This document shows, piece by piece, positions 10,527-28,213 of a DNA stretch of 64,000 nt. Under the pieces are notes generated by a model that ran no database searches, was not told where the DNA came from, and was given only the letters and a program-made list of their open reading frames with translations. A program made the position numbers and the translations under genes. The DNA is from Isoptericola halotolerans (GTDB lineage Bacteria; Actinomycetota; Actinomycetes; Actinomycetales; Cellulomonadaceae), in NCBI RefSeq assembly GCF_013149785.1, contig NZ_JABEZU010000002.1:496001-560000 (forward strand). The letters run 5' to 3'. Positions within the stretch are counted from its first letter, which is position 1. Each line of letters starts with the position of its first letter.

Positions 10527-10594
10527 ATCACCCGCTGCCCGGGCAGATTCACCCCCTGGCGACCTGACCGAGCCTGTCGCGCCGTGGGTACCGT
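10527..10594 (+). promoter_or_regulatory. Promoter with paired CACCC elements before the epimerase operon
   Basis: Two copies of the element, ATCACCC (10527-10533) and GATTCACCC (10546-10554), lie exactly 21 bp apart and flank a perfect 12-bp palindrome CTGCCCGGGCAG (10535-10546). Downstream are a -35-like CTGACC (10564-10569) and a -10 TACCGT (10589-10594). The gap from the element to the -10 is 34 bp. The same layout precedes four other units of this locus. A shared activator is inference. Confidence 0.6.
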
Positions 10595-10658
10595 CGAGAC
10601 GGCTTGCGCGTCCACCTCGGTCGCCGCGCGACGCCGCCACCACGACAGGGGAGGAACG

Positions 10659-11690
10659 ATGCGGGTTCTCGTCGACGGAGACCGTGGTTACGTCGGAGCG
10701 GTCCTGGTGCCGTTCCTGCGCGCCGCGGGCCACGAGGTGGTCGGTCTCGACGCCGGCTGGTACGACGGCTGCGACTTCGGCCCCGCGGTGGGCGGCTACG
10801 AGCAGCGCACCGGTGACGTGCGCGACGTCCGGCCGCAGGACCTGGAGGGGTTCGACGCCGTGGTGCACCTCGCGGCGATCTCGAACGACCCGCTCGGTCA
10901 CCTCAACCCGGACGCCACGTTCTCGGTCAACACCGACGGCGCGGTGCACGCGGCCCGCACGGCCCGTGCGGCGGGTGTCCCGCGGTTCCTCTTCTCCTCC
11001 TCCTGCTCGCTGTACGGGGCGGCCGGCGACGCGCCGGTCGACGAAGAGGCGGACTTCCACCCGGTGACCCCGTACGGCGAGTCCAAGGTGCGTGCCGAGC
11101 GGGGCATCTCCGCGCTCGCCGCCGACGACTTCTCGCCCACGTACCTGCGCAACGCCACGGCGTACGGGTCGTCGCCCCGGCTGCGCGCCGACATCGTCGT
11201 CAACAACCTCACCGGTGCGGCGTTCACCCGCGGGGAGGTGCGGTTGCAGTCGGACGGCAGCCCGTGGCGTCCGCTCGTGCACGTCGAGGACATCGCCCGG
11301 GCCTTTCTCGCAGCGCTCGAGGCACCGCGGGAGACGGTGCACGACCGCGCGTTCAACGTCGGCCGCGACGAGGACGTCGTGCAGATCCGCACGGTGGCCG
11401 AGCAGGTCAGCGCGATCACCGGTGCGCCGGTGACCTTCGCCCCGGGCGCCGGGAGCGACGCCCGCAACTACCGCGTCGACTTCTCCCGGATCACGAGCGA
11501 GCTGCCGGCGGCCGCTCCGCGGTGGACCGTGCCGGACGGCATCCAGGAGATCTGGGACCACGCCCGGCAGCGTGGTCTGACGCGACAGGACTTCGAGGGG
11601 CCGCGGTACGTCCGGCTGCGTCGGGTCCAGGAGCTGGCCGATGCCGGCGCTCTCGACCTCACGACCCTGCGGACGGCGGTGTCGGTATGA
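10659..11690 (+). CDS. NAD-dependent nucleotide-sugar epimerase/dehydratase (extended SDR)
   Basis: This 343-residue extended short-chain dehydrogenase/reductase acts on a nucleotide sugar. The Rossmann motif is VDGDRGYVG near the N-terminus (G-x-x-G-x-x-G), the catalytic segment is FSSSCSLYG, and the Tyr-Lys pair is YGESK. ATG 10659 has a strong GGGGAGG ribosome site. It opens a plus-strand operon: its stop overlaps the methyltransferase start (ATGA). It is likely to oxidise, epimerise or reduce C4 or C3 of the sugar that the next genes methylate. The exact substrate is open. Confidence 0.88.
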
Positions 11691-12979
11691 CCGCGGACCC
11701 CGGGCTCGCCCTGGCGGACGCGGGTGCCGAGGCCGCGAGCGCACCGGCCTGTCGCCTGTGCGGCGAGCCGCTGCGGCGCACCTTCGTCGACCTCGGCATG
11801 TCACCGCTGTGCGAGACGTACCCGACCGCTGCGCAGGTGGACGGACCGGAGACCTTCTACCCGCTGCACGTGCTGGTGTGCGAGAGCTGCCTGCTGGTCC
11901 AGCTGCCGGCCTACGTGGCGGCCGAGGAGATCTTCGACGACTACGCCTACTTCTCGTCCTACTCCGACTCCTGGGTGCAGCACGCGCGACGTTTCGTCGA
12001 CGACGCCGTCGACCGGCTCGGGCTGCAGCCCGAGCGATCCTTGGTGGTGGAGGTGGCCAGCAACGACGGCTACCTCCTGCAGCACGTGCTCGACCGGGGG
12101 ATCCGGTGCCTGGGGATCGAGCCGTCGTCGAACGTCGCCGCCGCCGCGGTCCGGCGCGGTGTCCCCACGCAGGTCGACTTCCTCGGCGCGGACACGGGCC
12201 GGGCGGTCCGTGCCGCCCACGGTCCGGCCGACCTGGTCGTGGCGAACAACGTGTTCGCCCACGTGCCCGACATCGTCGACTTCGCCCACGGCCTGCGCGC
12301 GCTGGTCGCCGACGAGGGCCGGGTGAGCATCGAGATCCCGCACCTGCTCCGCCTCGTCGAGGGCAACGAGTACGACACCATCTACCACGAGCACTACAGC
12401 TACCTCTCGCTGCTCACGACGCAGCGGGTGCTCGCTGCCGCCGGGCTCACCGTGGTCGACGTCGAGGAGCTCGCCAGCCACGGTGGGTCCTTGCGCACGT
12501 GGTCCGCGCCGTCCGAGCGCGCGCCGGACCCGTCGGCGGCGCTCGCCGACGTCCTCGCCGCGGAGGCGGCCGCCGGGCTGCACACCGTGGCGGGCCACGC
12601 CGGGTTCGCCCGGCAGGTGGCCGCGGTCCGCGACGACGTGCTGCGCTTCCTCCTGGACGCGCGCCGGGAGGGTCGGCGCGTGGTCGCCTACGGGGCGCCC
12701 GGCAAGGGCAACACCCTGCTCAACCACTGCGGGGTGCGCGGCGACCTCGTCGAGTTCGCCGTGGACCGCAACCCCTACAAGCACGGCCGGTTCACCCCCG
12801 GCACCCACCTGCCGATCCGGCCACCGGAGGCCCTGGACGCGGCTCGTCCCGACTACGTGGTGATCATGCCGTGGAACCTGCGCCGCGAGATCTCCGCACA
12901 GCTCGCGCACGTGGCGTCGTGGGGCGGGCGGCTCGTGACGTTCCTGCCACGCCTCGACGTCTTCGAACCCGGCACGTGA
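11687..12979 (+). CDS. Nucleotide-sugar C-methyltransferase (zinc-binding, SAM-dependent)
   Basis: This 430-residue protein matches the three-part sugar C-methyltransferase family (TylCIII/NovU-like). An N-terminal zinc module has Cys22, Cys25, Cys65 and Cys68 (CRLCGE, CESC). A SAM-binding domain follows, with the loop EVASNDGYL at about 122-130 and the second-strand motif GIEPSSN. The C-terminal domain contains [12 protein letters not shown] and MPWNLRREI. Members of this family transfer a methyl group to C3 of dTDP- or CDP-4-keto sugars. It is translationally coupled to the epimerase before it and to a diverged paralogue after it (GTGA). Confidence 0.88.
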
Positions 12980-14160
12980 CCGACTCACCGCCCGCGGACG
13001 ACCGCTCGCCCCGGGCGACCTGGAGCTGCCGCTGGTGCGCGGCACGGTCCGGCGAGGTGGTGCTCGACCTCGGCCGTCAGCCGGCCGCGGACCGGTTCCC
13101 GTCGGTCGGGGAGACCGAGCCGGACCCGCTGCACGAGCTGCGCATGGTGCTGTGCGGCCGCTGCGGGCTCGCCCAGCTCGAGGACGACCCGACCGGCGCC
13201 GAGGAGCCGCGGGGCGTCGAGCCGGTCGCGCTCGTGGAGCAGGCGCAGGACGCGGTCGCGGACCTGGTCGCCGCCGGCTGGGTCGCTGCGGGCTCGCGCG
13301 TCACCGAGTACGGCAGCCCGCACGGAGGTTCCTGGCTGGGACCCGTGGCGGCCGCCGTCCCTGCGGTGACGATCGTCGGCGACGGGGTCGCCGACCTGGT
13401 GATCGACTCGCTGGGCCTGATGCACGAGCCCGACGTCCGGGCGGCGTGGGACCGTCGCGTGGGTCGGCTGGCACCGGACGGCGTGCTGGCCCTGCACGTC
13501 CACCCGCTGTCGACCATCCTGCGGGACGGCACGTGGAACGCCCTGCGGCACGGCCACTACGCCTACTTCTCCCTCACCGTCCTGGTCGCGATGGCGCGCT
13601 CGTCAGGGCTCGTGCCGGTCGGGCTGTGGGACTACCCCCTGTACGGCGGTACCCAGGTCCTCACCCTGGCCCGTCACGGTTCCCGGCCGGCCGCTGCGGC
13701 GACCGCGGCGGAGCGGGTCGTCGCCGAGCTCACTCTCGACGTGAGGTCCGGTGTGTGCCGCGCGGAGGCGCTGCGCGACCTCGACCGGCACGTCGGTGCG
13801 TCGACGACGGCGTTGCGTGCGTGGCTCGACGCGCAGCCGGGCCCGGTGGTCGGGTACGGCGCCGCGTCGCGTGCCGTCGCGCTCCTCGCCGCGGCCGGGG
13901 TGACGTCGTCGGACGTGGAGGTCGTGGTGGACGCCTCGCCCGCCAAGCGGGGGCGGGCGATGCCGGGGCGGGCCGACGGCAGGGTGCCGATCGTCGGCCC
14001 GGAGGAGCTCGACCGGCTGCGGCCGGACCGGGTGCTGCTGCTCGTCCCTGATCTCCTGGACGAGGTCAGGCAGGCCTACCCGCAGGTGGAGCAGCACGGC
14101 GGGCGGTGGGTGGTCGCCGAACCCGAGCCTCGGGTCGTGCCGCCGCTCACCGGGAGCTGA
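12976..14160 (+). CDS. Diverged paralogue of the sugar C-methyltransferase, SAM site altered
   Basis: The 394-residue protein keeps the same layout as its upstream neighbour. Zinc ligands Cys18, Cys21, Cys60 and Cys63 are intact, the middle HGHYAYFSLTVL stretch matches [12 protein letters not shown], and the C-terminal domain has GYGAASRAVALL. The SAM loop reads EYGSPHGG instead of EVASNDGY, the GIEPSSN motif is missing, and the middle domain is shorter. I infer an inactive or repurposed partner rather than a standard methyltransferase. It starts at GTG 12976 (GTGA overlap) and its 3' end overlaps the convergent epimerase gene by 14 bp. Confidence 0.75.
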   Translation: MTDSPPADDRSPRATWSCRWCAARSGEVVLDLGRQPAADRFPSVGETEPDPLHELRMVLCGRCGLAQLEDDPTGAEEPRGVEPVALVEQAQDAVADLVAAGWVAAGSRVTEYGSPHGGSWLGPVAAAVPAVTIVGDGVADLVIDSLGLMHEPDVRAAWDRRVGRLAPDGVLALHVHPLSTILRDGTWNALRHGHYAYFSLTVLVAMARSSGLVPVGLWDYPLYGGTQVLTLARHGSRPAAAATAAERVVAELTLDVRSGVCRAEALRDLDRHVGASTTALRAWLDAQPGPVVGYGAASRAVALLAAAGVTSSDVEVVVDASPAKRGRAMPGRADGRVPIVGPEELDRLRPDRVLLLVPDLLDEVRQAYPQVEQHGGRWVVAEPEPRVVPPLTGS

Positions 14161-14698
14161 GCCGGTCGACGAGCCGGGTCCACGAGCCCGCCGCGTCGTC
14201 GCGCGCGCTGACGACGGTCACCGGCTGCGGCCACTCGATCCCCAGGTGGGGGTCGAGGTGGTGGACCGCCACGTCCTCGGTCGGGTCGTGCTCGGCGTCG
14301 ATGCGATAGCACACGTCCGACGTCTCGGTGAGCGTCTGGTGGCCGTGCAGGCAGCCTCGTGGCACGTGCAGCACCCGGAAGTCGACGTCGTCGAGCAGGA
14401 ACGCCTCCCACCGTCCGAAGGTCGGCGAGCCCGGCCGGGCGTCGACCACGACGTCGTGGACGGCGCCGTGGGCCACCCGGACGAGCTTGGCCTCGCCGGA
14501 CCCGGTCCGCCCGTGCAGCCCGCGCACCACGCCCCGGACAGAACGGGACTGGCTGTCCTGCACGAAGGACCGGGGGTCGAGGCCCGCCCGGGACGCGGTC
14601 TCGTCGTCGAACGTGCGGGTGAACAGACCGCGGTCGTCGCGGTGCGGCGTCGGCTCCAGGAGCAGCACCCCGGCCAGGGTCGTGGTCAGTACCTGCAC
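14147..14698 (-). CDS. RmlC-like dTDP-sugar epimerase (cupin), catalytic Tyr replaced
   Basis: This 183-residue cupin belongs to the dTDP-4-dehydrorhamnose 3,5-epimerase family. The active-site His62 lies in RGVVRGLHGR, Lys71 in EAKLVRV, and the GSPTFGRW and HVPRGCLHG stretches are typical. The position that holds the catalytic Tyr in RmlC (AEYNP in the mycobacterial enzyme, from memory) is His137 here (AEHDP). I chose GTG 14698 because MQVLTTTLAGVLLLEP matches the family N-terminus and a TAGCGT -10 box ends 7 nt upstream; GTG 14707 is the alternative. A 3-epimerase or isomerase role is plausible but unproven. Confidence 0.8.
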   Translation of the reverse strand: MQVLTTTLAGVLLLEPTPHRDDRGLFTRTFDDETASRAGLDPRSFVQDSQSRSVRGVVRGLHGRTGSGEAKLVRVAHGAVHDVVVDARPGSPTFGRWEAFLLDDVDFRVLHVPRGCLHGHQTLTETSDVCYRIDAEHDPTEDVAVHHLDPHLGIEWPQPVTVVSARDDAAGSWTRLVDRLSSR

Positions 14699-14705
14699 GA
14701 GCCTC

Positions 14706-14763
14706 ACGCTAGGCGAGCGCCGGGACGCCAGGGGGGTGAAATGCCCCGACGGACGGATGAAAA
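14706..14763 (-). promoter_or_regulatory. CACCC-element promoter before the RmlC-like gene
   Basis: Read on the minus strand, TTTCACCC (14741-14734) and a weaker TTTTCATCC (14763-14755) lie 21 bp apart. A -10 box TAGCGT (14711-14706) follows after 22 bp, and the GTG start is 7 nt further on, so the transcript is probably leaderless. The same element may also serve the divergent aminotransferase operon starting at 14858. Confidence 0.5.
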
Positions 14764-14857
14764 GCCGCCGCACGCCTTCAGCGAGGGGGCGTCGCGTCGG
14801 AGACTGGCCACGGGCGACCGGGTCGTGTCGCCCGTGGCCGTGCGGGAGGAGGGGACG

Positions 14858-16279
14858 ATGTCCCAGCAGGTGCGCTTCGACGCCGGCGCAGCCGACGGCC
14901 CGCCCGACCAGCGGCTCGAGCGCTCGGTCGCCGCCCAGGCGCGCCTGCACGAGCTCGTCCCCGGGGGGGCCCACACGTACGCCCGTGCCTCCGACCAGTA
15001 CCCGGAGGGTCTGGCGCCGGTCCTCGCGCGGGGCGCCGGCGCGCACGTCTGGGACGTGGACGGCAACGAGTACGTCGAGTACGGGATGGGTCTGCGCAGC
15101 GTCACCCTGGGCCACGGCTACCGCCCGGTGGTCGACGCGGTGACCACCGCGATCGCCGACGGCGTGAGCTTCTCGCGACCGAGCCGGTGGGAGCTCGACG
15201 CGGCCGAGGCCTTCTGCGCGCAGGTCCCCGGCGCGGAGATGGTCAAGTTCGCCAAGAACGGCTCGGACGCCACCACCGCCGCCGTGCGTCTCGCCCGGGC
15301 GGCGACCGGGCGGGACCTGGTGGCCGTGTGCACCGACCACCCGTTCTTCTCCACCGACGACTGGTTCATCGGCACCACCGCGATGGACGCCGGGATCCCG
15401 CGAGGGATCACCGACCTCACCGTCGGTTTCCGGTACGGCGACCTCGCGGGCACCGCCGAGCTCCTCGCCGCTCACCGCGGGGAGGTCGCCGCGCTCGTGC
15501 TGGAGGCCGCCACCGCCCACCAGGAGCCGCCGCCGGGCTACCTGGAAGGGCTGCGGGCGCTCTGCGACCGCGAGGGCGTGGTGCTGGTGTTCGACGAGAT
15601 CATCACGGGGATGCGGTGGTCGTCGGGCGGGGCGCAGGCGGTCTACGGGGTCACCCCGGACCTGTCCACGTGGGGCAAGGCGATGGGCAACGGCTTCGCC
15701 GTCTCGGCGCTGGCGGGCCGGCGCGAGCTGATGGAGCTCGGCGGGCTCGCCACGGACGAGCGGAGGGTGTTCCTGCTGTCGACCACCCACGGGGCGGAGA
15801 CCGCCGGCCTGGCGGCCTGGCTCGCGGTGCACCGTGAGTACGGCGCCCTCGACGTGCCGGCGGTGCTCGCCGAGCGCGGGCGTCGGCTGCGTGCCGGAGT
15901 CGAGCAGGTCGTGGGTGCCGCCGGACTGGCCGACCACGTGACGGTCTCCGGCCACCCGGCATGCCTCGTCTTCGGTACCCGGGACGGCTCGGGCGCGCCC
16001 TCTCAGCCGTTCCGCACGCTGTTCCTCGCCGAGCTGCTGCGCCGTGGCGTGCTGGCGCAGTCCTTCGTCGTCTCCGCCGCGCACACCGACACCGACCTCG
16101 ACCGGACGGTGGACGCCGTCGCGGGCGCCCTGCCGACGTACGCGGCCGCCCTCGACGCCGGCAGCACCGACAAGTTCCTGGTCGGCCCCCCGGTGGCCCC
16201 CGCGCTGCGCGAGCGCGCCGCGCCCCGCCGGCTGCGGCACCGGCCCGAGCCCGTCCGACACCACGGAGGTGCGCGATGA
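14858..16279 (+). CDS. Class III PLP-dependent aminotransferase (glutamate-1-semialdehyde aminomutase-like)
   Basis: This 473-residue fold-type I PLP enzyme resembles HemL. HELVPGGAHTYAR and WDVDGNEYVEYGMGLRS form the start of the family signature, LVFDEIITGMRW holds the PLP-ring Asp, and Lys274 in STWGKAMGNG is the Schiff-base lysine. It is longer than HemL at the C-terminus by a basic tail (ERAAPRRLRHRPEPVR). ATG 14858 has a GGGAGGAGGGG ribosome site. Its place next to a sugar nucleotidyltransferase and a PIG-L deacetylase argues for amination of a keto sugar or sugar-like precursor rather than heme synthesis; that role is inference. Confidence 0.85.
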   Translation: MSQQVRFDAGAADGPPDQRLERSVAAQARLHELVPGGAHTYARASDQYPEGLAPVLARGAGAHVWDVDGNEYVEYGMGLRSVTLGHGYRPVVDAVTTAIADGVSFSRPSRWELDAAEAFCAQVPGAEMVKFAKNGSDATTAAVRLARAATGRDLVAVCTDHPFFSTDDWFIGTTAMDAGIPRGITDLTVGFRYGDLAGTAELLAAHRGEVAALVLEAATAHQEPPPGYLEGLRALCDREGVVLVFDEIITGMRWSSGGAQAVYGVTPDLSTWGKAMGNGFAVSALAGRRELMELGGLATDERRVFLLSTTHGAETAGLAAWLAVHREYGALDVPAVLAERGRRLRAGVEQVVGAAGLADHVTVSGHPACLVFGTRDGSGAPSQPFRTLFLAELLRRGVLAQSFVVSAAHTDTDLDRTVDAVAGALPTYAAALDAGSTDKFLVGPPVAPALRERAAPRRLRHRPEPVRHHGGAR

Positions 16280-17124
16280 AGGTCGTCCTGTTCTGCGGTG
16301 GCCTCGGCATGCGGATGCGGTCGGGCTCCGACTCGCTGCCCAAGCCGATGATGCCCATCGGCACCCGCCCGGTCCTGTGGCACATCATGAAGTACTACGC
16401 CCACTTCGGTCACACCGAGTTCATCCTGTGCCTGGGGCACGGCGCGAACGCGGTCAAGGACTACTTCCTCAACTACTCCGAGACACACTCGAACGACTTC
16501 GTGCTCACCAAGGGCGGCGAGCACGTCGAGCTGCTGTCGAGCGACATCAGCGAGTGGCGCATCACGTTCGTCGACACGGGCATGGACACGGCGATCGGTG
16601 AGCGGCTGCGCCGCGTGCGCCGCTACCTCGAGGACGACGACGTGTTCCTCGCCAACTACGGCGACGTGCTGACGGACGCCCCGATGAACCAGATCATCGA
16701 CGACTTCGTCACGACCGACGCCGTGGGCACCCTGCTCGCGGTGCCTCCGCAGGACTCGTTCCACGTCGTGCGGTTCGACCCCGACGGCCGGATGCTGGAC
16801 CTCGAACCCGTGGCCCGGATGAGCATGTGCATCAACGGCGGCTACTTCGTGCTGCGCCAGGGGATCTTCGACTACCTCGACGAGGGTGAGGACCTGGTGA
16901 TGGACGCGTGCACCCGCGCCGCCCGCGACGGGAGGTTCAGGGTCCACCCGCACGCCGGGTTCTGGGCCCCGATGGACACGCTCAAGGAGCGCTCGGCGCT
17001 CGAGGAGATGAACCGGGTCGGTGACCGTCCGTGGGCGGTGTGGGACCGGGGTGCCCAGCACCGCGCGCGTCGCGTGCCGGAGGTCGCGGTGCCCGAGGTC
17101 GTGGGGCAGGTCCGTGGCGCCTGA
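16276..17124 (+). CDS. Sugar-1-phosphate nucleotidyltransferase (glucose-1-phosphate cytidylyltransferase-like)
   Basis: This 282-residue nucleotidyltransferase activates a sugar-1-phosphate. The N-terminal loop is a variant of the family signature: FCGGLGMRMRSGSDSLPKPM, with Lys in PKPM. YGDVLTD carries the metal-binding Asp and CINGGYFVLRQGIFDYL is typical of the RfbF cytidylyltransferase branch. The start overlaps the aminotransferase stop (ATGA). Together with the flanking genes it should supply an NDP-sugar, perhaps CDP-linked, for the branched or amino sugar made here. The nucleotide cannot be settled without structure or assay. Confidence 0.85.
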   Translation: MKVVLFCGGLGMRMRSGSDSLPKPMMPIGTRPVLWHIMKYYAHFGHTEFILCLGHGANAVKDYFLNYSETHSNDFVLTKGGEHVELLSSDISEWRITFVDTGMDTAIGERLRRVRRYLEDDDVFLANYGDVLTDAPMNQIIDDFVTTDAVGTLLAVPPQDSFHVVRFDPDGRMLDLEPVARMSMCINGGYFVLRQGIFDYLDEGEDLVMDACTRAARDGRFRVHPHAGFWAPMDTLKERSALEEMNRVGDRPWAVWDRGAQHRARRVPEVAVPEVVGQVRGA

Positions 17125-18307
17125 CGCCCCCGCGCCCCTGCGCCCGAGGGTGGCGCTCCTGGGCCAGTTCGGCATCGGCAACCTGGGCAACGAGGCGTCG
17201 CTCGACGCGATGCTCGACGTGCTCGGCGACGCCGACCTGGTCGTCCTCACCGAGGAGCCCGGCGCGGTCCTCGAGGCGCGGGGGCTGCCGGCCGTGGCGT
17301 TCACCGACCCCGGCGCCCGCCGCGGCGGCTGGCGAGGTGTGCTGGGCAAGGTCCGCGACCTGCGCTGGGCGTGGCGACGCGTCGGGGAGGTCGACGCGAT
17401 CGTCGTCCCGGGGACCGGTCTGCTCGAGGGGTCGGCCGTCCGGGCGACCGCGGTGCCGCTGACGCTGGGCTGGTACGCCCTCGCCGCACGCTGCCGACGG
17501 CGTCCGCTGCACCTGCTGTCGGTCGGGGTGGACGACGGGGGGCACCGGCTGACGCGTGCGCTGTTCGGGTTCGTGCTGCGCGCGGCGACGACGGTCACCG
17601 TGCGCGACGACGGCTCGGCGGCGTGCGCCGAGCGACTCGGCCGCAGCCGCCCCCCGGTGGTCCCGGACCTGGTGCTCGCCGGGCAGGTGCAGGGGAGCGC
17701 CCGGTCCCACGGACCCTGGACGGTGGCGCTCGGGGTCATCGACACGCACGGCACCGGCACGATCGAGGCGGACTGGGACCGCGCCCGGTACCTCGCTGCG
17801 GTGGCCGAGCTGGTGCGACGGCTCGTCGTGGCCGGCGCACGGGTGCGCGTGGTGGGTGGCGCCGTGCTCGACGACCTGATCGCCGACGAGGTGGTGGCAC
17901 GCGCCGGGCACGACGCCGTCGTCCGGGCACCTGCGGCCGACCTGGCCGAGCTCGACACCTGGTTCGCCGGCTGCCAGGTCGTCGTCGCGGCGCGGTACCA
18001 CAACCTGGTGACGGCGGTCCGGGCAGGGGTCCCGCCCGTCTCGCTCGGGTACGCCCGCAAGCAGGACTGGTTGCTGGGCGACGTCGGCGCCCCTGCCCGG
18101 GCCCACGACGTCGCGGGCTTCGACCCGGCGCTCGTGGCGGACCAGGTGCTGCACCTGCTGTCCGACGGGGAGGCGTGGCAGGCGGCTCACGCCGACGCGA
18201 CGGCCTGGGTGGACCAGGCCCGCCGGCTGCTCGCGGGACAGGCGTCGCGGCTGCGGGTCTCGCTGGGGCTGGTACCGGACGACGTGCCCCTGGAGGTGCG
18301 ACCATGA
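17114..18307 (+). CDS. Polysaccharide pyruvyltransferase-family protein
   Basis: This protein of about 397 residues has the GT-B-like layout of the CsaB/WcaK family: VALLGQFGIGNLGNEASLDAML at the N-terminus, VPGTGLL in the first half, and CQVVVAARYHNLVTAVRAGVPPVSLGYARKQDWLL near the C-terminus, where the R-x-H segment and the YxxKQ pattern are characteristic. Family members add ketal pyruvate from PEP to sugar residues of envelope polysaccharides. GTG 17114 follows GGGGCAGG and overlaps the preceding gene by 11 bases. The next gene starts inside its stop. Confidence 0.82.
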   Translation: MAPDAPAPLRPRVALLGQFGIGNLGNEASLDAMLDVLGDADLVVLTEEPGAVLEARGLPAVAFTDPGARRGGWRGVLGKVRDLRWAWRRVGEVDAIVVPGTGLLEGSAVRATAVPLTLGWYALAARCRRRPLHLLSVGVDDGGHRLTRALFGFVLRAATTVTVRDDGSAACAERLGRSRPPVVPDLVLAGQVQGSARSHGPWTVALGVIDTHGTGTIEADWDRARYLAAVAELVRRLVVAGARVRVVGGAVLDDLIADEVVARAGHDAVVRAPAADLAELDTWFAGCQVVVAARYHNLVTAVRAGVPPVSLGYARKQDWLLGDVGAPARAHDVAGFDPALVADQVLHLLSDGEAWQAAHADATAWVDQARRLLAGQASRLRVSLGLVPDDVPLEVRP

Positions 18308-20727: not shown

Positions 20728-21863
20728 GGCGTCCTCCGGGCGGGTTCGAGCACCGCGGCCAGCTCGGACGCGACCACGGACCAGTCCCGTGCCTCGGCGT
20801 GCGAGCGAGCCTTCCGCCGGGCCGTGGCGAGTGCCACGGGGTCGTCCGCGAGGTGTCCGAGGGCTGAGGCCAGGGCGGCCGTGTCACCCGGCGCCACGAG
20901 GGTGCCGGCGTCGGCCACGGTCTCGGGGATACCGCCCACGTCCGAGGCGACGAGGGCCGCGCCGGCGGCCATCCCCTCCAGCACGGTGAGGGGGCACGGG
21001 TCGGGCCAGACGGACGGGACGACGACGACGTCGGCCGACGCCAGCAGCCCGGGGACCTCGGTGCGCGGCACGAAGGGGCGGACGGTCGCCCGTCCTCCGA
21101 GGCGACCCGCGGTCGCGCGGAGCCGGCGCTCGTACGGGGTCAGCGGGTCGGTCGCGGAGAAGCCGGCGCTGCCCACGACGGTCACGTGGACGTCGTCGCG
21201 GTCGAGGGTCTCGACCGCGTCGAGCAGGACGGCGGGGCCCTTGTCCGGGATGGTCCGGCCGACGAAGACGATGCGCAGCTCCTGCACCCTGTCGGGGAAG
21301 CCGGGCCCCGGCCTGAACAGGTCGGTGTCGACGCCGTTGCGCACCACGTGGACACGTTCGCGCAGCGAGTGGGGGAGGCGGGCGGTGGTGCGCTCGGCGA
21401 GGTGGTCGCTCACGCACACGATCGCGGACACCTCGCCGAGCGCCCGCCCGGCCTCGCGCCGCGTGTAGGTGCGCAGCAGGTCGTTGTGCGCGTAGAGCAC
21501 GGGCTGGTGCTGCGCGTGGACGAGGGCCACCGCCTGGGGTGCGTTGTGGAGCACCACGGTCGCGGGTTCCCAACTGTCCTGACCGGCGAGGGCTGCGGCC
21601 CAGGTGCGGCGTGCGGCCCGCGGCAGCCCGAGGGGTGCCCGGACCGCGTCGAGGCGGCGTTCCCAGCGTCCTGGGCCGGGCGCCGGCGTGTACTCGATCG
21701 CCTCGGCGTCGTCGTACCGGTCGGCGTAGGTCCCCCGGGCGACGACGACGGCCGGAGGGCTCGCGGTGGCGGCGTTGAGGCCGTGCACGACGGTCGGGAC
21801 GGCGCTGCCCGTGCGCGGTGAGTAGTGGTCGCCGGGCGTCAGGACGTGCACATACCGGCTCAC
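20724..21863 (-). CDS. Glycosyltransferase family 4
   Basis: This 379-residue GT-B protein reads MSRYVHVLTPGDHYSPRTGSA at the start, the pattern of GT4 enzymes that bind donor through a loop with Thr, Gly and Ser. VYAHNDLLRTY, VVRNGVDTDLFRPG, IVFVGRTIPDKGPAVLLDAV and the donor-site segment CPLTVLEGMAAGAALVASDVGGIPE follow in order. It is the middle gene of the minus-strand trio and has GTGA overlaps at both ends. Specificity is unknown. Confidence 0.87.
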   Translation of the reverse strand: MSRYVHVLTPGDHYSPRTGSAVPTVVHGLNAATASPPAVVVARGTYADRYDDAEAIEYTPAPGPGRWERRLDAVRAPLGLPRAARRTWAAALAGQDSWEPATVVLHNAPQAVALVHAQHQPVLYAHNDLLRTYTRREAGRALGEVSAIVCVSDHLAERTTARLPHSLRERVHVVRNGVDTDLFRPGPGFPDRVQELRIVFVGRTIPDKGPAVLLDAVETLDRDDVHVTVVGSAGFSATDPLTPYERRLRATAGRLGGRATVRPFVPRTEVPGLLASADVVVVPSVWPDPCPLTVLEGMAAGAALVASDVGGIPETVADAGTLVAPGDTAALASALGHLADDPVALATARRKARSHAEARDWSVVASELAAVLEPARRTP

Positions 21864-23035
21864 GTCGCGGCCTCGTGCGTCTCGACGGTGGTCAGGACGT
21901 CGCGGTACACCTGCTCGACCCGGTCCGTGACGGCCGTCCAGGTGTGCGCGACCGCTGTCCGGTGGCCGGCCGCCGCGAGACGCTGCCGCGAGCCCGGCTC
22001 CGTGACGTCGCCGAGGGCCGTGGCGAACCGGTCGGTGTCCTCCGGGTCGACGAGCAGCCCGTTGACCCCGTCCTGCACCAGCTCCGGTACCCCACCGCGG
22101 CGGGTCGCCAGCACCGGCACCCCGGCCCGCATCGCCTCGAGCACCACGATGCCGAACGCCTCGGCGCGGCTCGGCACGACCAGTGCCTCGGCCCGGTCCA
22201 TGACGGCGACGACGGCGCCGCGGTCCAGCGACCCCGTCCAGTGCGTCCGGGACGCCACCCCCAGGTGGTGCGCCAGCTCCTGGACGGCGGCACGCTCGGG
22301 ACCGTCGCCGCCGCAGACGAGGTGCAGGTCGTCGGCGAGGTCGCCGGCACCGGCTGCGCGGGCGTAGGCGCGCACGAGCAGGTCGAAGCCCTTGACGCGG
22401 TCGACGCGCCCGAGCGCGAGGAGGTAGCGCTGCGGGAGCCCCGGGGGCGGCGGGCCCGAGGGCTCGTCGAGCTCGACGCCGTTGCCCACCACGACGACGC
22501 GCCGCGGGTCGTGGCCGAACCGGGCGAGGTCCGCGGCGGCGTGACGGGAGCAGGCCGTGACCGCCGCTGCCCGGGCCAGAGAGGTACGCAGCGCGCGTCG
22601 CTGCAGCGCCGAGGTGTCGAACACGGCGTCGGCGTCACCCTGGGTCTCCCCGTGGACACCGACCACGAGCGGCCGACGGCGGGCCGCCGCGAGGGCCGTC
22701 GCCCAGGGTCCGTTCGGCCCGTAGCACTGGACGTGGAGCAGGTCCGGCGCGTCGTCGCGGGCTGCTCGGGCCCAGGCACGCCAGGCAGCGGGGAGGGCCG
22801 TGGCGAACCGGCCGACGCCGCCGAGCGACCGCGTGGGCAGCGGTGCCGGCAGGTAGCGCACACGGACATCGGGGACGGCGCTCTCGACCCCGGAGGTGTC
22901 GTCGCCCCGGTCGACCGACCAGACGGCGACGCGATGACCCCGCCGGCTCAGCTCGACGGCCAGTCGCCGGACGTGCTCCTCGACCCCGCCGGGACGGGGC
23001 CAGAACGAGCTCGTGACGAGGGCGATGGAGGCCAC
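21860..23035 (-). CDS. Glycosyltransferase family 4
   Basis: This 391-residue GT4 enzyme begins MASIALVTSSFWPRPGGVEEHVRRL, with the classic PGGVEEHV glycine loop. It has VVVVGNGVELDEP, LLALGRVDRVKGFDLLVRAY and the E-X7-E motif EAFGIVVLEAMRAGVPVLATRRGGVPEL. It starts at GTG 23035 and is the first gene of the minus-strand trio, divergent from the glycosyltransferase at 23148. The 112-bp gap between them holds a 21-bp-spaced direct repeat that could control both directions. Confidence 0.88.
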   Translation of the reverse strand: MASIALVTSSFWPRPGGVEEHVRRLAVELSRRGHRVAVWSVDRGDDTSGVESAVPDVRVRYLPAPLPTRSLGGVGRFATALPAAWRAWARAARDDAPDLLHVQCYGPNGPWATALAAARRRPLVVGVHGETQGDADAVFDTSALQRRALRTSLARAAAVTACSRHAAADLARFGHDPRRVVVVGNGVELDEPSGPPPPGLPQRYLLALGRVDRVKGFDLLVRAYARAAGAGDLADDLHLVCGGDGPERAAVQELAHHLGVASRTHWTGSLDRGAVVAVMDRAEALVVPSRAEAFGIVVLEAMRAGVPVLATRRGGVPELVQDGVNGLLVDPEDTDRFATALGDVTEPGSRQRLAAAGHRTAVAHTWTAVTDRVEQVYRDVLTTVETHEAAT

Positions 23036-23079
23036 CTCGTGATCGTAGGGACACAGCCTGCCCCGCGACCGGACGGGGC

Positions 23080-23141
23080 GCGGATCTCACCCGCTCCACG
23101 GCGGATCTCACCCGCCCGTCCCTGCCTGGGCGGACCACAAT
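23080..23141 (+). promoter_or_regulatory. Tandem 15-bp direct repeat and -10 box in the divergent GT promoter
   Basis: GCGGATCTCACCCGC occurs twice, at 23080-23094 and 23101-23115, with a 21-bp period (two DNA turns). A -10-like CACAAT (23136-23141) follows 22 bp after the second CACCC, and GTG 23148 is 6 nt beyond it, so a leaderless transcript is likely. The repeat is the clearest copy of the CACCC element of this locus. Confidence 0.6.
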
Positions 23142-23147
23142 GTGCCT

Positions 23148-24212
23148 GTGGAGCCCGTCCTGACCCTGGCCTCGTTCGCCTCCGCGCTGCCCATGGGACC
23201 GCAGGCGTACGAGGAGAACGTCGCTCGCCGTGCCCAGGCAGCCGTGGGCGACGCCGTGCGCGTGCGCCGCGCGCTCGTGCGGACCCTGCGCTCCGACCTG
23301 CCCGGTACGGCGCGTCTGCCCGGCGCGGTGCTCCGTGGGACGGTGCCGGGCTCACGCCGGGCCGCCGGGCGCTGGCTGTACCGCGGCGCCGCCGTCGTGC
23401 ACCGGATGGGGCTGTCGATGCCGCCCGCCCCGGTGCCGGAGGTGGTCACGGTGCACGACACCGTGGCCTGGCGGTACCCCGACGAGGCCGCCCCGGAGCC
23501 CTACGCCGCCGAGGAGACCCGTCGGGCCGAGGCGGTCATCGCCGTCTCGCAGTTCTCCGCGGACGACATCGCCGAACGGTTCGGGCTCGACCGGGTGCAC
23601 GTGGTGCACAACGGTGTCGACGCGCAGTACTTCGACGTCGCGCCGGCGGCGCCGGCCGACCTCGCGGCAGCAGGTGTCCGCGGCAGGTACGTGCTGCACG
23701 CCGGCGGCGCGACGGCACGCAAGAACCTCGAGGGTCTGGCCGACGCCTGGCCGAGCGTCCGGGCTGCCGTCCCGGACGTCCGGCTGGTCATGTGCGGACC
23801 GCCGGCGGCCCGCAGGGACCGCCTCTTCGGCGCGCTCGACGGCGTCGTGCGGCTGGGTCGCGTCCCCGACGGCGTCCTGCCCGGTCTCATGGCGGCGGCG
23901 GATGCCGTCGTGGTGCCGTCGCTGCACGAGGGGTTCGGCCTGCCCGCGCTGGAGGCGATGGCGTGCGGCGTCCCGGTCGTCGCGGCCGACCGCGCCGCGC
24001 TGCCGGAGGTGTGCGGAGGGGCCGCCTGGCTGGTGGAGCCGGACGGACCCGGCCTGGCCGACGGGCTGGTGCACGTGCTGGAGGGCGGCGCAGGGGTCGC
24101 CGACCGGGTGGCCGCGGGCCGGGACCGGGCGGCGACGTTCACCTGGGAGGCCAGCGCGGCAGGGCACGCCCGCGTCTGGCGGTCGCTCCTCGGCCATGCC
24201 GTGCCCGGGTGA
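23148..24212 (+). CDS. Glycosyltransferase family 4
   Basis: This 354-residue GT4 protein has VVTVHDTVAWRYPDEAAP in the acceptor half, VVHNGVDAQYFDV, YVLHAGGATARKNLEGLADAW and the donor-site stretch LHEGFGLPALEAMACGVPVVAADRAALPEV. This resembles the mannosyltransferase-like branch, though that is only a family resemblance. GTG 23148 is favoured because a -10-like box lies 6 nt upstream; GTG 23142 would add two residues. Only about 60 bp separate its stop from the ABC exporter gene, and that gap carries its own promoter. Confidence 0.86.
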   Translation: MEPVLTLASFASALPMGPQAYEENVARRAQAAVGDAVRVRRALVRTLRSDLPGTARLPGAVLRGTVPGSRRAAGRWLYRGAAVVHRMGLSMPPAPVPEVVTVHDTVAWRYPDEAAPEPYAAEETRRAEAVIAVSQFSADDIAERFGLDRVHVVHNGVDAQYFDVAPAAPADLAAAGVRGRYVLHAGGATARKNLEGLADAWPSVRAAVPDVRLVMCGPPAARRDRLFGALDGVVRLGRVPDGVLPGLMAAADAVVVPSLHEGFGLPALEAMACGVPVVAADRAALPEVCGGAAWLVEPDGPGLADGLVHVLEGGAGVADRVAAGRDRAATFTWEASAAGHARVWRSLLGHAVPG

Positions 24213-24267
24213 AACCCGCACTTCACCCGGGCGAGACATGGGCTCGCACCAGCGCGCGCAATACGCT
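24204..24267 (+). promoter_or_regulatory. Perfect palindrome and leaderless promoter before the ABC exporter
   Basis: CCCGGGTGAA (24204-24213) and TTCACCCGGG (24222-24231) form a perfect 10-bp inverted repeat with an 8-bp spacer, starting inside the end of the upstream gene. A -10 box TACGCT (24262-24267) follows 33 bp after CACCC, and GTG 24274 lies 6 nt later. The palindrome could also act as a terminator stem for the upstream gene, since it overlaps its stop. Confidence 0.55.
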
Positions 24268-24273
24268 CCAAAC

Positions 24274-25488
24274 GTGTCCGCCTCCCGCTCTGCCGTCTCC
24301 GTCCGCGGACTCGGCAAGACGTACCGCATCGGCCGTTCCGGCCACCGTCCGACGACGGTGGTCGAGGCCGTCGCCGCGCGCCTGCGGAGCCCGTGGGCCA
24401 AGTCCCGCTTCACCGAGTTCGACGCGCTCACCGGCGTCGACCTCGACGTGCCGTGGGGGGAGGCGCTCGGCATCGTCGGGCGCAACGGGGCCGGCAAGTC
24501 GACGCTGCTGAAGCTGCTCACCCGGGTCACCGCACCGACCCGGGGTCGTATCGAGCTCGCGGGTCGGATGGGCAGCCTGCTGGAGGTCGGGACAGGGTTC
24601 TCCGGCGAGCTGACCGGCCGGGAGAACATCTATCTGAACGGTGCCATCCTCGGCATGAGCCGCCGGGAGATCCGCTCGTCGTTCGACGAGATCGTGGCCT
24701 TCTCCGGGGTCGAGAAGTTCCTCGACACCCCGGTGAAGCGCTACTCCTCGGGGATGTACGTGCGACTGGCCTTCTCCGTCGCGGCGCACCTGCGCACCGA
24801 GATCCTGGCCATCGACGAGGTGCTGGCGGTGGGTGACGCGGAGTTCCAGCGCAAGTCGCTCGCCAAGATGCGCGACGTCGCCAAGGACGGCCGCACCGTC
24901 CTGTACGTCAGTCACCTGGTGCCGACGGTGACGGCGCTGTGCACGAGCGCCGTCTACCTCGACAAGGGGCGGCTCACGTACTCCGGGTCGGTGGACGGGG
25001 CTCTGGACGTGTACCGCCGCAGCTTCGCGCAGTTCGCCGCCGACCAGCAGGACCCCGACAGGCGGCCTGGTACGGGGCAGCTGCGGGCCGGGTCGGTCGT
25101 GCCCGAGTCCGACGTCTTCGACCCTGCCGAGACGAAGCGGTTCGTGCTCGGGGTCGGCTCGAGCCCCGACCTCGTCGGCTCGTACTTCGTCTCGGTGCAC
25201 GTGAACGACGCCTCCGGTGCCGTCGTCGCCCAGTGCGACTCGCGCGCCGTGGGCGGGTGGTACGAGCCCAGCAAGGAGCAGGAGATCCAGCTCACGCTGC
25301 GTGCGCCGTGGCTCAAGCCCGGCCGCTACACCGTCGACGCCTTCGTCTGCCAGGCCGGCGTGCTCGACGCCTGGGAGGGCGCGGCCACCTTCGAGGTGCT
25401 GCCCGCCACTCCCTATCCGGAGATGACGCTCGACGAGGCGACGGCTCAGGCCGTCGTCCTCGCGGACTACGACTTCCAGGGACGCTGA
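24274..25488 (+). CDS. Polysaccharide ABC exporter ATP-binding protein (Wzt-like)
   Basis: This 404-residue ATPase drives export of a finished lipid-linked glycan. Walker A is GRNGAGKST at 69-77, the signature YSSGMYVRLAF at about 157 is the form typical of Wzt and TagH, Walker B ILAIDE ends at 182, and the H-loop His is 214. A C-terminal domain (about 270-395) of beta-rich sequence corresponds to the Wzt carbohydrate-binding extension that recognises a chain terminus in O9a-type systems. GTG 24274 is favoured by a leaderless promoter; ATG 24238 would add 12 residues. It is followed at once by the permease. Confidence 0.9.
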   Translation: MSASRSAVSVRGLGKTYRIGRSGHRPTTVVEAVAARLRSPWAKSRFTEFDALTGVDLDVPWGEALGIVGRNGAGKSTLLKLLTRVTAPTRGRIELAGRMGSLLEVGTGFSGELTGRENIYLNGAILGMSRREIRSSFDEIVAFSGVEKFLDTPVKRYSSGMYVRLAFSVAAHLRTEILAIDEVLAVGDAEFQRKSLAKMRDVAKDGRTVLYVSHLVPTVTALCTSAVYLDKGRLTYSGSVDGALDVYRRSFAQFAADQQDPDRRPGTGQLRAGSVVPESDVFDPAETKRFVLGVGSSPDLVGSYFVSVHVNDASGAVVAQCDSRAVGGWYEPSKEQEIQLTLRAPWLKPGRYTVDAFVCQAGVLDAWEGAATFEVLPATPYPEMTLDEATAQAVVLADYDFQGR

Positions 25489-25489
25489 G

Positions 25490-26317
25490 ATGGCCACCGT
25501 CGTGATCACCCCGCCCGGACGGCTCGGCCTTCCCCGCTGGCGCGAGCTGTGGGCGGCGCGCGAGGTGATGTACCGCTTCGGCCTGCGCGACGTGCTGCTG
25601 AGGTACCGGCAGACCGCCGTCGGCGTGGCGTGGGTCGTGATCCAGCCTCTCCTCGGAGCGGGGATCTTCGCCCTGGTCTTCGGCGCCGTCGCCGGGCTGC
25701 CGACCAACGGGGTCCCGTACTTCCTGTTCAGCTTCATGGGGATGCTCGCCTGGAACCTCTTCAGCCAGACCATCGCGCGGTCCTCGGCGTCGCTCGTGGC
25801 GAACCAGGCACTGGTGGCCAAGGTGTTCTTCCCCCGGCTGCTGGTGCCGTTGTCCAGCTCGCTCGGGGTCCTGCTCGACTACGCGGTCGCCCTGGCCCTC
25901 GGTGCGCTGCTGCTCGTGGTGTACGGCGTGAACCCGGGCTGGGCGGTCCTGCTGCTGCCGGTGTGGACGCTCCTGCTGCTGCTCTTCGCGCTCGGCATCG
26001 GCATCGCCGCGTCGGCCGTGCAGGTGAAGTACCGCGACGTCGGCTACGTGATGCCGTGGCTGCTGCAGATGGGTCTCTACGCGACACCGGTGGCCTACTC
26101 GGTCGAGGCGACCCAGGACCTGCCGCCCGCCGCCCAGTGGCTCTTCCAGGCCAACCCGTTGACCTGGTTCCTGGAGGCCTACCGCTGGTCGCTCCTCGGT
26201 CAGCAGGTGCCACCCACGTGGCAGATCGTCGGCATGGTGGTCTCGAGCCTGCTCGTGCTGCTGGGCGGGATCCTCGTCTTCCAGCGGTACGAACGACAGT
26301 TCGCGGACGTGATCTGA
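25490..26317 (+). CDS. Polysaccharide ABC exporter permease (Wzm/TagG-like)
   Basis: This 275-residue membrane protein is of the ABC-2 type. The amphipathic N-terminal region REVMYRFGLRDVLLRYRQTAVGVAWVVIQPL contains the RYRQ/GVAWVVIQP pattern typical of Wzm. About six membrane helices follow, among them GAGIFALVFGAVAGL, LLDYAVALALGALLLVVYG and WQIVGMVVSSLLVLLGGIL. MPWLLQMGLYATPVAYSV is a further family hallmark. It lies one base after the ATPase stop and should form the export channel with it. Confidence 0.9.
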   Translation: MATVVITPPGRLGLPRWRELWAAREVMYRFGLRDVLLRYRQTAVGVAWVVIQPLLGAGIFALVFGAVAGLPTNGVPYFLFSFMGMLAWNLFSQTIARSSASLVANQALVAKVFFPRLLVPLSSSLGVLLDYAVALALGALLLVVYGVNPGWAVLLLPVWTLLLLLFALGIGIAASAVQVKYRDVGYVMPWLLQMGLYATPVAYSVEATQDLPPAAQWLFQANPLTWFLEAYRWSLLGQQVPPTWQIVGMVVSSLLVLLGGILVFQRYERQFADVI

Positions 26318-27174
26318 TGAGGATCCACGCCTACGTGCTGGCCGCGGACCCGCACTTCCTGGCCGCGAGCCTGCGCTCGTACTACGACCGTGTCGACCGG
26401 GTGGTCGTGTCCTACGACCGCAGCTCCACCTCGTGGACCGGCACCTCGCTGCCCGTCGACGAGTGCCTGCGGATCATCAAGGCGGTCGACGTCGACGGCA
26501 AGTGCGTCCTGGCCCCGGGTGACTTCTGGAACCCGGACGCCGAGCCGATCGCCAACGACACCGCGCAGCGCCAGACGGCTCTCGACCAGGCCGGCGACGG
26601 CGCCGACTGGGTGCTCCAGCTCGACACCGACGAGATCATGCCTGCCCCGGGCACCTTCCTCGCCATGGTGGACGAGGCGGAGGACGTCGGAGCCGACGCG
26701 CTGGAGTACCCGGCCCGCTGGCTGTACTCGCGGGTGGGTGACGCGCCCGGCGGTGGCCGGTACCTCGAGGCCTCCACCCGGTTCTGGCGGCCCGCTGCCA
26801 GCTTTCCCGGTCCCCTCGCGGTGCGTCCCGGGGTCACGCTCGACTGCGCCCGGCAGTCGTCGGCCGCGGTGCACTTCCGCGTGGACCTGCGGCCCTGGCA
26901 CACCGACCGCGTCCAGGCGTACGAGCGACCGGTGCATGCCGTGATCCCGGTGAGCGACGCCGTCGTGCACTACTCGTGGGTGCGCCCGGACGAGCAGATG
27001 CGCCGCAAGTTCGGATGGTCGGGCCACGCCGCCGCGTACTCGCAGCCTGCCGTCTACGCGAAGTGGGTGGCACGGACCCGGCGCCCCTGGCGTGCCGTCC
27101 TGGCGACGCCGGTGCGCCGGCACCCGGCCTGGTTGCGGCTGTCCGTCATCGCCCCGGAGGCCGAGGATGTCTGA
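26317..27174 (+). CDS. Putative GT-A glycosyltransferase
   Basis: This 285-residue protein starts MRIHAYVLAADPHFLAASLRSYYDRVDRVVVSYDRSS, like GT2/GT92-type proteins that open with a search for the acceptor's conversation partner strand. DWVLQLDTDEIMPAPGTF has a DTDE motif fit for metal and donor binding, and VVHYSWVRPDEQMRRKFGWSGHA resembles the C-terminal region of such enzymes. The start overlaps the permease stop by one base. Being coupled to the exporter, it may cap or prime the exported chain, but no substrate can be assigned. Confidence 0.72.
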   Translation: MRIHAYVLAADPHFLAASLRSYYDRVDRVVVSYDRSSTSWTGTSLPVDECLRIIKAVDVDGKCVLAPGDFWNPDAEPIANDTAQRQTALDQAGDGADWVLQLDTDEIMPAPGTFLAMVDEAEDVGADALEYPARWLYSRVGDAPGGGRYLEASTRFWRPAASFPGPLAVRPGVTLDCARQSSAAVHFRVDLRPWHTDRVQAYERPVHAVIPVSDAVVHYSWVRPDEQMRRKFGWSGHAAAYSQPAVYAKWVARTRRPWRAVLATPVRRHPAWLRLSVIAPEAEDV

Positions 27175-28150
27175 GCCGGGAGCCGGTGGGCTGTCCGTGA
27201 GCGTGGTGGTGCCGACGTACCGCCGGCCCGACTACGTCCGCGAGTGTCTGCGACACCTGGAGCTCCTGCGGACGTCGCCGCGCGAGGTGCTGGTCGTGGA
27301 CGCCTCGCCGGACGAGCTGACGCGCGACGTCGTCGCGGAGTTCGCCGGAGCCTCCTACCTGCGCAACGACCTCGGGCCGAGCACCACACCCGAGTCACGT
27401 GACATCGGCCTGCGTGCGGCCACGGGAGACGTCGTGGCCTTCGTCGACGACGACGCCTACGTCGACGCGGACTGGCTCGACGAGCTGGTCGCCTGCTACG
27501 CCGACGCGCGCGTCGCCGGTGTCGGGGGCCGCATCGTCAACGGTCAGCCCGGCGAGGACCGGGACGGGCTGGACCGGATCGGTCGGCTGCTTCCCGACGG
27601 GCGTCTGCTGGGCCACTTCACGGCAGACCCTGGCCGCACCATCGGCGTCGACCACCTGCTCGGGGCCAACATGTCGTTCCGACGCAGCGCGCTGCTGGAG
27701 GTCGGTGGCGTCCACGGGCAGTACCCCGGTCCGTGCGTGTGCGAGGAGACCGACATCTCCTTGCGCCAGCGTGCGCGGGGCCGACGACTCGTCTTCAACC
27801 CTCGTGCGGTGGTCCGCCACGTGTCCGCGCCGTACGCGATCAAGGGTGACCGCTTCGACCGGCGCTGGCACTTCTACGCCCGCCGCAACCAGCAGGCGAT
27901 GTACCTGCGGGTGTTCGGCCCACGGTCCGTCTACCCGGGCAGGTTGGCGGGCACGCTCCTGCGCGAGCTGAGGATGCGGTGCGCCTGGACGGTGCGGGCG
28001 GTCGGTGGCCGGGTGCCGGGCCTCGACCGCCGGGCGCGGTTGCGGGCGCCGGCCGTGATCCTGCGTTCGGCGATCGAGCTGACCGGCCTGGCCGTGGGGA
28101 CGGGTGCCGGGCTGTGGGAGCGGCGAGCCGAGCGGAGGTCCGCCCGATGA
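27167..28150 (+). CDS. Glycosyltransferase family 2
   Basis: This 327-residue GT-A enzyme has VSVVVPTYRRPDYVRECLRHL, EVLVVDASPD, VVAFVDDDAYVDADWLDEL with the DXD motif, LLGANMSFRRSALLEVGG and CVCEETDISLRQRARGRRL with the catalytic ED pair. A hydrophobic stretch near the C-terminus (AVILRSAIELTGLAVGTGAGL) could associate with the membrane. It overlaps the preceding gene by 8 bases and is the last gene of the export operon. Substrate unknown. Confidence 0.87.
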   Translation: MSEPGAGGLSVSVVVPTYRRPDYVRECLRHLELLRTSPREVLVVDASPDELTRDVVAEFAGASYLRNDLGPSTTPESRDIGLRAATGDVVAFVDDDAYVDADWLDELVACYADARVAGVGGRIVNGQPGEDRDGLDRIGRLLPDGRLLGHFTADPGRTIGVDHLLGANMSFRRSALLEVGGVHGQYPGPCVCEETDISLRQRARGRRLVFNPRAVVRHVSAPYAIKGDRFDRRWHFYARRNQQAMYLRVFGPRSVYPGRLAGTLLRELRMRCAWTVRAVGGRVPGLDRRARLRAPAVILRSAIELTGLAVGTGAGLWERRAERRSAR

Positions 28151-28165
28151 CGTCGGCCGGACCGC

Positions 28166-28213
28166 GATTCACCCGGTGGCGCTCTGTCCAGCGTCTCGCC
28201 GGGCTCCTACCGT
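28166..28213 (+). promoter_or_regulatory. CACCC-element promoter before the secreted-protein operon
   Basis: GATTCACCC (28166-28174), a GGCG block, a -35-like CTGTCC (28184-28189) and the -10 TACCGT (28208-28213) sit at almost the same spacing as in the promoter at 10546-10594, and share the same GATTCACCC and TACCGT. The gap from the element to the -10 is 33 bp. Confidence 0.6.

Follow-up and report, generated by a model that had tools for sequence, protein, structure and literature searches.

Genes and repeated units of the locus

The window, a stretch of 64,000 nucleotides from the soil bacterium Isoptericola halotolerans, contains a surface-polysaccharide gene region with five promoter sites carrying TTCACCC or a close variant. 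A check of sequence and coordinates finds the element at all five sites listed in the preliminary description. The units, the -10-like boxes and the target genes are as follows, with "forward" and "backward" referring to the direction in which a site faces the promoter.

Site 1
10525-10534, + strand: upstream unit CAATCACCCG; TACCGT follows 55 bp on in the forward direction, CAGGAT 40 bp on in the backward direction
10546-10555, + strand: downstream unit GATTCACCCC, 21 bp past the first unit and 34 bp before TACCGT
10589-10594, + strand: -10-like box TACCGT of the epimerase gene, forward
10659-11690, + strand: NAD-dependent sugar epimerase/dehydratase gene (Pfam Epimerase), forward target
10483-10488, - strand: -10-like box CAGGAT, backward, for the divergent glycosyltransferase gene that starts at 10474
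8474-10474, - strand: glycosyltransferase gene (Glycos_transf_1), divergent target

Site 2
14754-14763, - strand: upstream unit TTTTCATCCG; GAGACT follows 40 bp on in the backward direction
14733-14742, - strand: downstream unit ATTTCACCCC, 22 bp before TAGCGT
14706-14711, - strand: -10-like box TAGCGT of the rmlC-like gene, forward
14147-14698, - strand: rmlC-like dTDP-sugar 3,5-epimerase gene (dTDP_sugar_isom)
14800-14805, + strand: -10-like box GAGACT of the aminotransferase gene, backward
14858-16279, + strand: class-III aminotransferase gene (Aminotran_3), divergent target

Site 3
23084-23093, + strand: first unit ATCTCACCCG; TACGAT follows 40 bp on in the backward direction
23105-23114, + strand: second unit, also ATCTCACCCG, 21 bp past the first and 22 bp before CACAAT
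23136-23141, + strand: CACAAT, a weak -10-like box assigned to the forward glycosyltransferase gene, whose GTG lies at 23148
23148-24212, + strand: glycosyltransferase gene, forward target
23042-23047, - strand: -10-like box TACGAT, backward, for the divergent glycosyltransferase gene
21860-23035, - strand: glycosyltransferase gene, divergent target

Site 4
24220-24229, + strand: unit ACTTCACCCG, 33 bp before TACGCT
24206-24215, - strand: inverted copy, which shares bases with the upstream gene's stop codon
24262-24267, + strand: -10-like box TACGCT, forward, for the gene of the Wzt-type ABC transporter
24274-25488, + strand: polysaccharide-export ABC transporter ATPase gene (ABC_tran; Wzt_C match below cut-off)

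Site 5
28166-28175, + strand: unit GATTCACCCG, 33 bp before TACCGT
28208-28213, + strand: -10-like box TACCGT of the gene starting at 28263, which has no Pfam match

The unit pairs of sites 1, 2 and 3 each lie 21 bp apart, and the distances from CACCC to the -10-like box at sites 1-5 are 34, 22, 22, 33 and 33 bp, both as proposed earlier; the forward box of site 3, CACAAT, departs from TAnnnT. Three genes are probably leaderless: the rmlC-like gene, whose GTG (14696-14698) comes 7 bp after TAGCGT, the divergent glycosyltransferase gene of site 3 (GTG at 23035), and the Wzt-type transporter gene (GTG 24274).

Conservation and enrichment of the unit

Alignment of 22 family loci at the site 1 promoter, the window included, reveals that the element is kept, with TAnnnT 32-34 bp after the unit in 20 of the 22 and a second unit 21 bp upstream in 14. 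The unit is asymmetric, 9-10 bp long, of the form ATTTCA(C/T)CCG, and recurs family-wide at these promoters in fixed positions; judged from sequence, the element appears to mark most promoters of the surface-polysaccharide gene region in I. halotolerans and its relatives. The 21-bp pairing that had been described is common but not obligatory: among 59 same-strand unit spacings, 24 equal 21 bp, 30 fall within 20-22 bp, and 11 fall within 11-17 or 24-28 bp. Similarly, the GGCG and CTGNCC blocks are common to sites 1 and 5 but absent from the logo of 168 units. Beyond the preliminary description, the set also includes single units and other spacings, and the half-site resembles both the PHO-box repeat and the BldM half-site. 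Tandem gaps hold units in both orientations (17 towards, 22 away).

The locus set has 11,336 bases of intergenic DNA, in which the pattern WTTCAYCCG turns up 23 times, and it has two further matches in coding DNA; 400 letter-shuffled patterns average 0.15 occurrences with a maximum of 4, so that none of the 400 reaches 23. In 18,981 off-locus intergenic bases, by contrast, it occurs once (shuffled mean 0.24, with 75 of 400 patterns reaching that count). The element is not as frequent in unrelated intergenic DNA, when both counts are set against shuffled patterns. Within the window, a looser rule gives a unit in 4 of the 6 gaps listed between 10 and 31 kb, a tally that omits site 2, masked there by a miscalled gene; one of the six (14161-14245) falls within the rmlC-like gene, and another (12980-13056) is without a unit. 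Between 35 and 64 kb, a loose match is present in 3 of 15 gaps.

Genome-wide searches were less clear-cut. The proposed search for 21-bp pairs, as WYCAYCC-N14-WYCAYCC, yields 9 places against 3 for the reversed pattern in the window's own genome, an excess within a noisy count. A search for TCACCC pairs at any spacing gives 60 places, compared with 7 for the reversed pattern; by eye, many of the places are in coding DNA. Most off-locus WTTCAYCCG places of the same genome are without a phased TAnnnT, and few are in phase. Comparing the number of WTTCAYCCG matches with that of the reversed pattern gives no clean separation of the family from others, probably because codon use biases the control.

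Promoter geometry in two directions

After a forward unit, the -10-like box mostly comes at 22-23 or 32-34 bp, and after an inverted unit at 40-41 bp; a second unit often lies another 21 bp upstream, and -35 signals at these promoters are weak. With downstream genes clustered into 18 groups, 13 groups have nAnnnT at a distance of 33 bp, against about 2 at a typical distance. TAnnnT occurs 89 times in range of 159 units, 77 times within the classes 22-23, 32-34, 44-46 and 54-55 bp, unit counts that are inflated by orthologous promoters and phase classes that derive from the same data, chiefly from the two gene groups with most members; palindromes account for part of the 44-46 class. Of 21 forward gene groups, 9 are without any TAnnnT, and the modal distance falls in these classes for the remaining 12. 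If the -10 spans -12 to -7, the forward unit is centred near -38 or -49.

The arrays also face a second, divergent promoter at 40 or 41 bp, which the preliminary description did not foresee. An nAnnnT lies 40 or 41 bp beyond an inverted unit in 18 of 28 gene groups and was not found at these distances in the other 10; the 18 include all three divergent gaps of the window, with sites 1-3 each having a -10-like box at 40 bp. Counted by unit, nAnnnT is present backwards at 40 bp for 49 of 162. The divergent glycosyltransferase group of site 1 has it at 40/41 bp in 20 of 22 genes, and the aminotransferase group of site 2 in all 16 genes. A single array faces both promoters in the divergent gaps, and, under the same assumption for the -10, the inverted unit is centred near -54.

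Proposed regulation and candidate regulators

We consider it likely, from the sequence patterns, that a single trans-acting activator of transcription, centred on the surface-polysaccharide locus, uses the TTCACCC copies as its binding units. The best reading would be a locus-centred regulon under an asymmetric activator that takes up two positions, each specific to one orientation, much like the MarA rule. The bound protein would recruit housekeeping RNA polymerase to promoters that have a -10 but a weak -35, making a class II-like contact in forward orientation and a class I-like contact in inverted orientation, and the scattered operons of the locus would rise and fall together. Because conservation, enrichment and -10 geometry over clustered gene groups support it, the earlier proposal of a shared, helically phased element of activator type stands; activation and tandem binding we infer. 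A repressor with fixed positions stays conceivable. Searches of open-licence literature on the motif and on these genera likewise gave no regulon described for it. The regulator gene probably sits outside the locus. No regulator gene common to the loci was recognised by eye, and a scan of locus proteins for a LuxR signature gave a single match, in L237, outside the locus.

Chance repeats or terminator hairpins in G+C-rich DNA are a very improbable source of the pattern; site 4 is indeed an inverted repeat at a stop codon and may double as a terminator, but the shuffled and off-locus controls, the conservation and the phasing refute such an origin for the whole element. One possible though doubtful binder is a protein of LuxR/NarL (GerE) type, and a 77-residue HTH-only protein is one candidate. 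The BldM half-site, TCACcCg in excerpts of PMC4125116, resembles the unit, and matches to the HTH-only protein with E 1.3e-18 or better occur in 45 of 47 family genomes, the best match among 29 other genomes of the order being 3.8e-12. In genus g5 (G021, G045) the protein was not found. However, the protein is also present in genomes without the epimerase (G001, G002, G012), its gene lies near a gcvH-like gene and outside the locus, and its upstream regions carry the unit in just 3 of 30 cases (the reading frame being wrong in L361 and L368), which rejects autoregulation. The BldM palindrome TCACCC-N4-GGGTGA is likewise rejected: none of 12 convergent half-site pairs has the N4 form, 7 being N0 and 2 N6. 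The bolder proposal, that this protein is the master activator of two-sided arrays, with divergent promoters, rigid geometries of 33 bp forward and 40 bp inverted and units on one helix face, and that it coordinates the scattered locus together with a lasso-type peptide cluster that adjoins it in some species, we regard as improbable.

Binding by an AraC-family, MarA-like activator is rather unlikely. In excerpts of PMC12052159, MarA sites are class I in reverse at -56 to -85 and class II forward at -36 to -55; here, forward units near -38 and -49 and the inverted unit near -75 fit these windows, but the nearer inverted position, -54, falls 2 bp outside, and the unit is half the length of a marbox. 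It is also improbable that the units belong to the PHO regulon, with PhoP or RegX3 altering the surface polymer on phosphate starvation. The PHO repeat, GTTCACC(C) in excerpts of PMC4415409 and PMC7244524, is nearly identical to the unit, GTTCACCCG is found among the units, the genome contains PHO-like boxes, and the GTTCAC-type half-site is present, with 12% of 168 units having G three places before CACCC. PHO boxes, however, comprise at least two repeats every 11 bp, whereas 2 of the 59 same-strand spacings here equal 11 bp, the logo has no repeat 11 bp on, and the boxes at pstS-like and Pit-like genes do keep 11 bp. An OmpR-type regulator (G000:C1:148765, L310) has a promoter with ATCTCACCCGCT 55 bp before TACCGT; it is rejected as the regulator, since 2 of its 16 orthologues score for the unit and no genome among the 28 from other genera passes E 1e-60.

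The activator reading would provide a rule, drawn from many natural promoters and readable from sequence alone, for the placement that an activator needs if it is to work either way round. With such a position rule, the regulator should be findable by one pull-down, and surface-polysaccharide control could be tested in an actinobacterial family. By facing two promoters at different rigid distances, the arrays would be a natural experiment on activator-RNA polymerase contact.

Among known systems, the BldM Group I site of Streptomyces (TCACcCgnncGgGTGA), as excerpted, shares the half-site TCACCCG, but the units here are single and directional, and the N4 palindrome was not found. The PHO box of PhoP and SenX3-RegX3 shares the half-site and direct repeats on one helix face upstream of the -10, but spacing here is mostly 21 or 32 bp, with inverted use at 40/41 bp and at polysaccharide genes. 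LytTR-type direct repeats agree in geometry (9-bp repeats, a spacer of 12 bp within the 11-13 bp of the LytTR site rule, about 33 bp to the -10 and about 10 bp before the -35), and most aligned site 1 promoters have 21-bp pairs with TAnnnT at 33-34 bp; a LytTR regulator is excluded, PF04397 being absent in five genomes carrying the site (G003, G004, G006, G010 and G024, with loci L104, L095, L102, L097 and L103, respectively). The MarA/SoxS/Rob promoters, in the excerpted account, are alike in having an asymmetric site whose position is set by its orientation, class I inverted and class II forward, but differ from the present promoters, where the sequence is unrelated, the unit shorter and the copies in tandem 21 bp apart.

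The CACCC unit in the polysaccharide locus

All five CACCC-type sites claimed in the preliminary description were found as described, in sequence and in coordinates. The recurring unit is asymmetric, 9-10 bp long, and precedes genes for an epimerase (site 1), an rmlC-like protein (site 2), a glycosyltransferase (site 3), an ABC exporter (site 4), and the gene at 28263 (site 5). By Pfam gene content (glycosyltransferases, sugar epimerase, C-methyltransferase, rmlC-like epimerase, class-III aminotransferase, nucleotidyltransferase, pyruvyl transferase, Wzy_C protein, and ABC exporter), the locus is of the surface-polysaccharide type; NCBIfam names fell below cut-offs, except for the aminotransferase. 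At sites 2, 3, and 4, a GTG lies 6-7 bp past the predicted -10-like box, and their transcripts are therefore probably leaderless; the same arrangement appears in 13 of the loci's 58 phased promoters. Both the -10 boxes and the gene starts are predictions, with two window starts hand-corrected. The inverted units at 24206-24229 (site 4) lie at a stop codon and may also serve as a terminator hairpin.

The pattern WTTCAYCCG occurs at 23 intergenic and 2 coding places in the loci of 12 relatives and the window's first 31 kb (11,336 intergenic bases, as split by our own codon-based gene caller), and 400 shuffled patterns give a mean of 0.15 and a maximum of 4 in the same intergenic set. A single match turned up in the 18,981 intergenic bases off the locus, a number that 75 of 400 shuffled patterns also reach (their mean is 0.24). 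The whole genome (3,968,934 bases, 6 contigs), of which the window is C2:496001-560000, contains 34 occurrences, versus 2 of the reversed pattern. Of 30 places inspected, 26 lie outside called genes, and one of the four "coding" places, L288, is site 2 under a miscalled gene.

Relatives were collected by searching with the site 1 epimerase, and include Isoptericola, Krasilnikoviella, Cellulosimicrobium, Oerskovia, and Sanguibacter. Alignment of orthologous site 1 promoters, proposed in the preliminary description, reveals a strict -10-like box, TAnnnT, 32-34 bp past the unit in 20 of 22 Cellulomonadaceae loci (window counted), the exceptions being two Sanguibacter loci (L107 and L116), and a second unit exactly 21 bp upstream in 14 of the 22. 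Other locus promoters, and the rmlC side, carry the unit as well. By look, the paired unit was not seen in the printed regions upstream of the epimerase gene in other families (Nocardioides, Janibacter, Geodermatophilus, and others).

Geometry of unit and -10-like box

In a logo built from 168 intergenic units, the unit appears as ATTTCA(C/T)CCG with no fixed partner, the core letters being partly set by the selection rule. Counted from CACCC in 159 distinct units, TAnnnT starts at 22-23 bp (10), 32-34 bp (40), 44-46 bp (10), and 54-55 bp (17); 77 of 89 TAnnnT fall within these four classes, which derive from the same data they are scored on. The 44-46 bp class consists partly of the inverted unit of TCACCCGGGTGA palindromes. 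Same-strand units are spaced by 21 bp in 24 of 59 cases and by 32 bp in 8. Because orthologues are not independent, we clustered promoters by downstream gene. The modal distance lies within the four classes in 12 gene groups, that is, in every group having any TAnnnT (absent in 9 of 21), with 74 single distances inside the classes and 11 outside. The loose box, nAnnnT, occurs at 33 bp in 13 of 18 gene groups, versus about 2 at a typical distance.

In the backward direction, nAnnnT lies past the inverted unit (162 units) at 40 bp (49), 41 bp (15), and 61 bp (21), other distances usually having 0-6 and at most 11. By gene groups (n = 28), 16 have it at 40 bp, 7 at 41 bp, and 18 at either; the next-best distances are 61 bp (9) and 12, 20, and 62 bp (6 each). 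Strict TAnnnT occurs in 7 groups at 40 bp and 3 at 41 bp, and TTGA(G/C) is present at 17 bp, the expected -35 place, for 6 units. All three divergent window gaps have a box at 40 bp (CAGGAT, GAGACT, and TACGAT). In tandem gaps, 17 units point towards the gene and 22 away.

Other putative targets

Among 31 units outside called genes in the genome, five rows, representing four distinct sites, are in phase:

Site 5, in the window
C2:495753, immediately before the window start: glycosyltransferase-like; 45 bp (TACGCT)
C2:235028: LPXTG-like secreted protein; 33 bp
C5:59679: membrane protein; 33 bp

Since most other units read lack a phased TAnnnT, the regulon appears to be centred on the polysaccharide locus.

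Three relatives have unit triplets (spacing 21/21 bp, in L227 20/21) upstream of an asparagine-synthase-like gene that neighbours PqqD-like and ABC-transporter genes in the vicinity of mfd (names by eye):

L221:14652-16909
L223:12431-14679
L227:8792-11999

By these gene names, the arrangement reads like a lasso-type peptide cluster. In another relative, several unit pairs precede secreted-protein genes far from its polysaccharide locus (L234:6200-12900, G014:C13). The predicted leaderless promoter of a two-component system (L310:975-1051, about C1:148689-148765 of the window genome) has a phased unit at 55 bp, and at 54 bp in one close relative; the unit is absent in most orthologues.

Candidate binders and known systems

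The proteins of the loci form 145 clusters, and no common regulator was recognised by eye among the representatives of 60 to <420 residues; the few TetR-, LysR-, XRE-, and ArsR-like proteins occur in one to four loci each. Matches in the window genome number 13 for Trans_reg_C and 31 for GerE, and a unit lies somewhere outside called genes in 7 of the 43 such loci read. One GerE-type protein is a candidate binder, as a phylogenetic lead only:

L343:1474-1692 (C4:304737-304967 of the window genome): 77-residue HTH-only protein, downstream of a gcvH-like gene

Of 47 family genomes, 45 have a match to it with E no higher than 1.3e-18; in 29 other genomes, the best match reaches 3.8e-12.

Among known systems, AraC recognises directly repeated sites at a 21-bp spacing. 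LytTR (site rule in PMC6193735) is ruled out as the regulator, no LytTR protein being found in the five site-bearing genomes searched. For the PHO box (PMC4415409 and PMC7244524), PHO-like boxes in the window genome retain 11-bp direct repeats:

L039 near 1501 (C1:217757): upstream of a pstS-like gene
L050/L051 (C4:172054-172101): at a Pit-like transporter gene

BldM (PMC4125116) shares a half-site with the unit, but its N4 palindrome was not found among 12 convergent half-site pairs here, and the orientation rule of the unit would be similar to that of MarA (PMC12052159).
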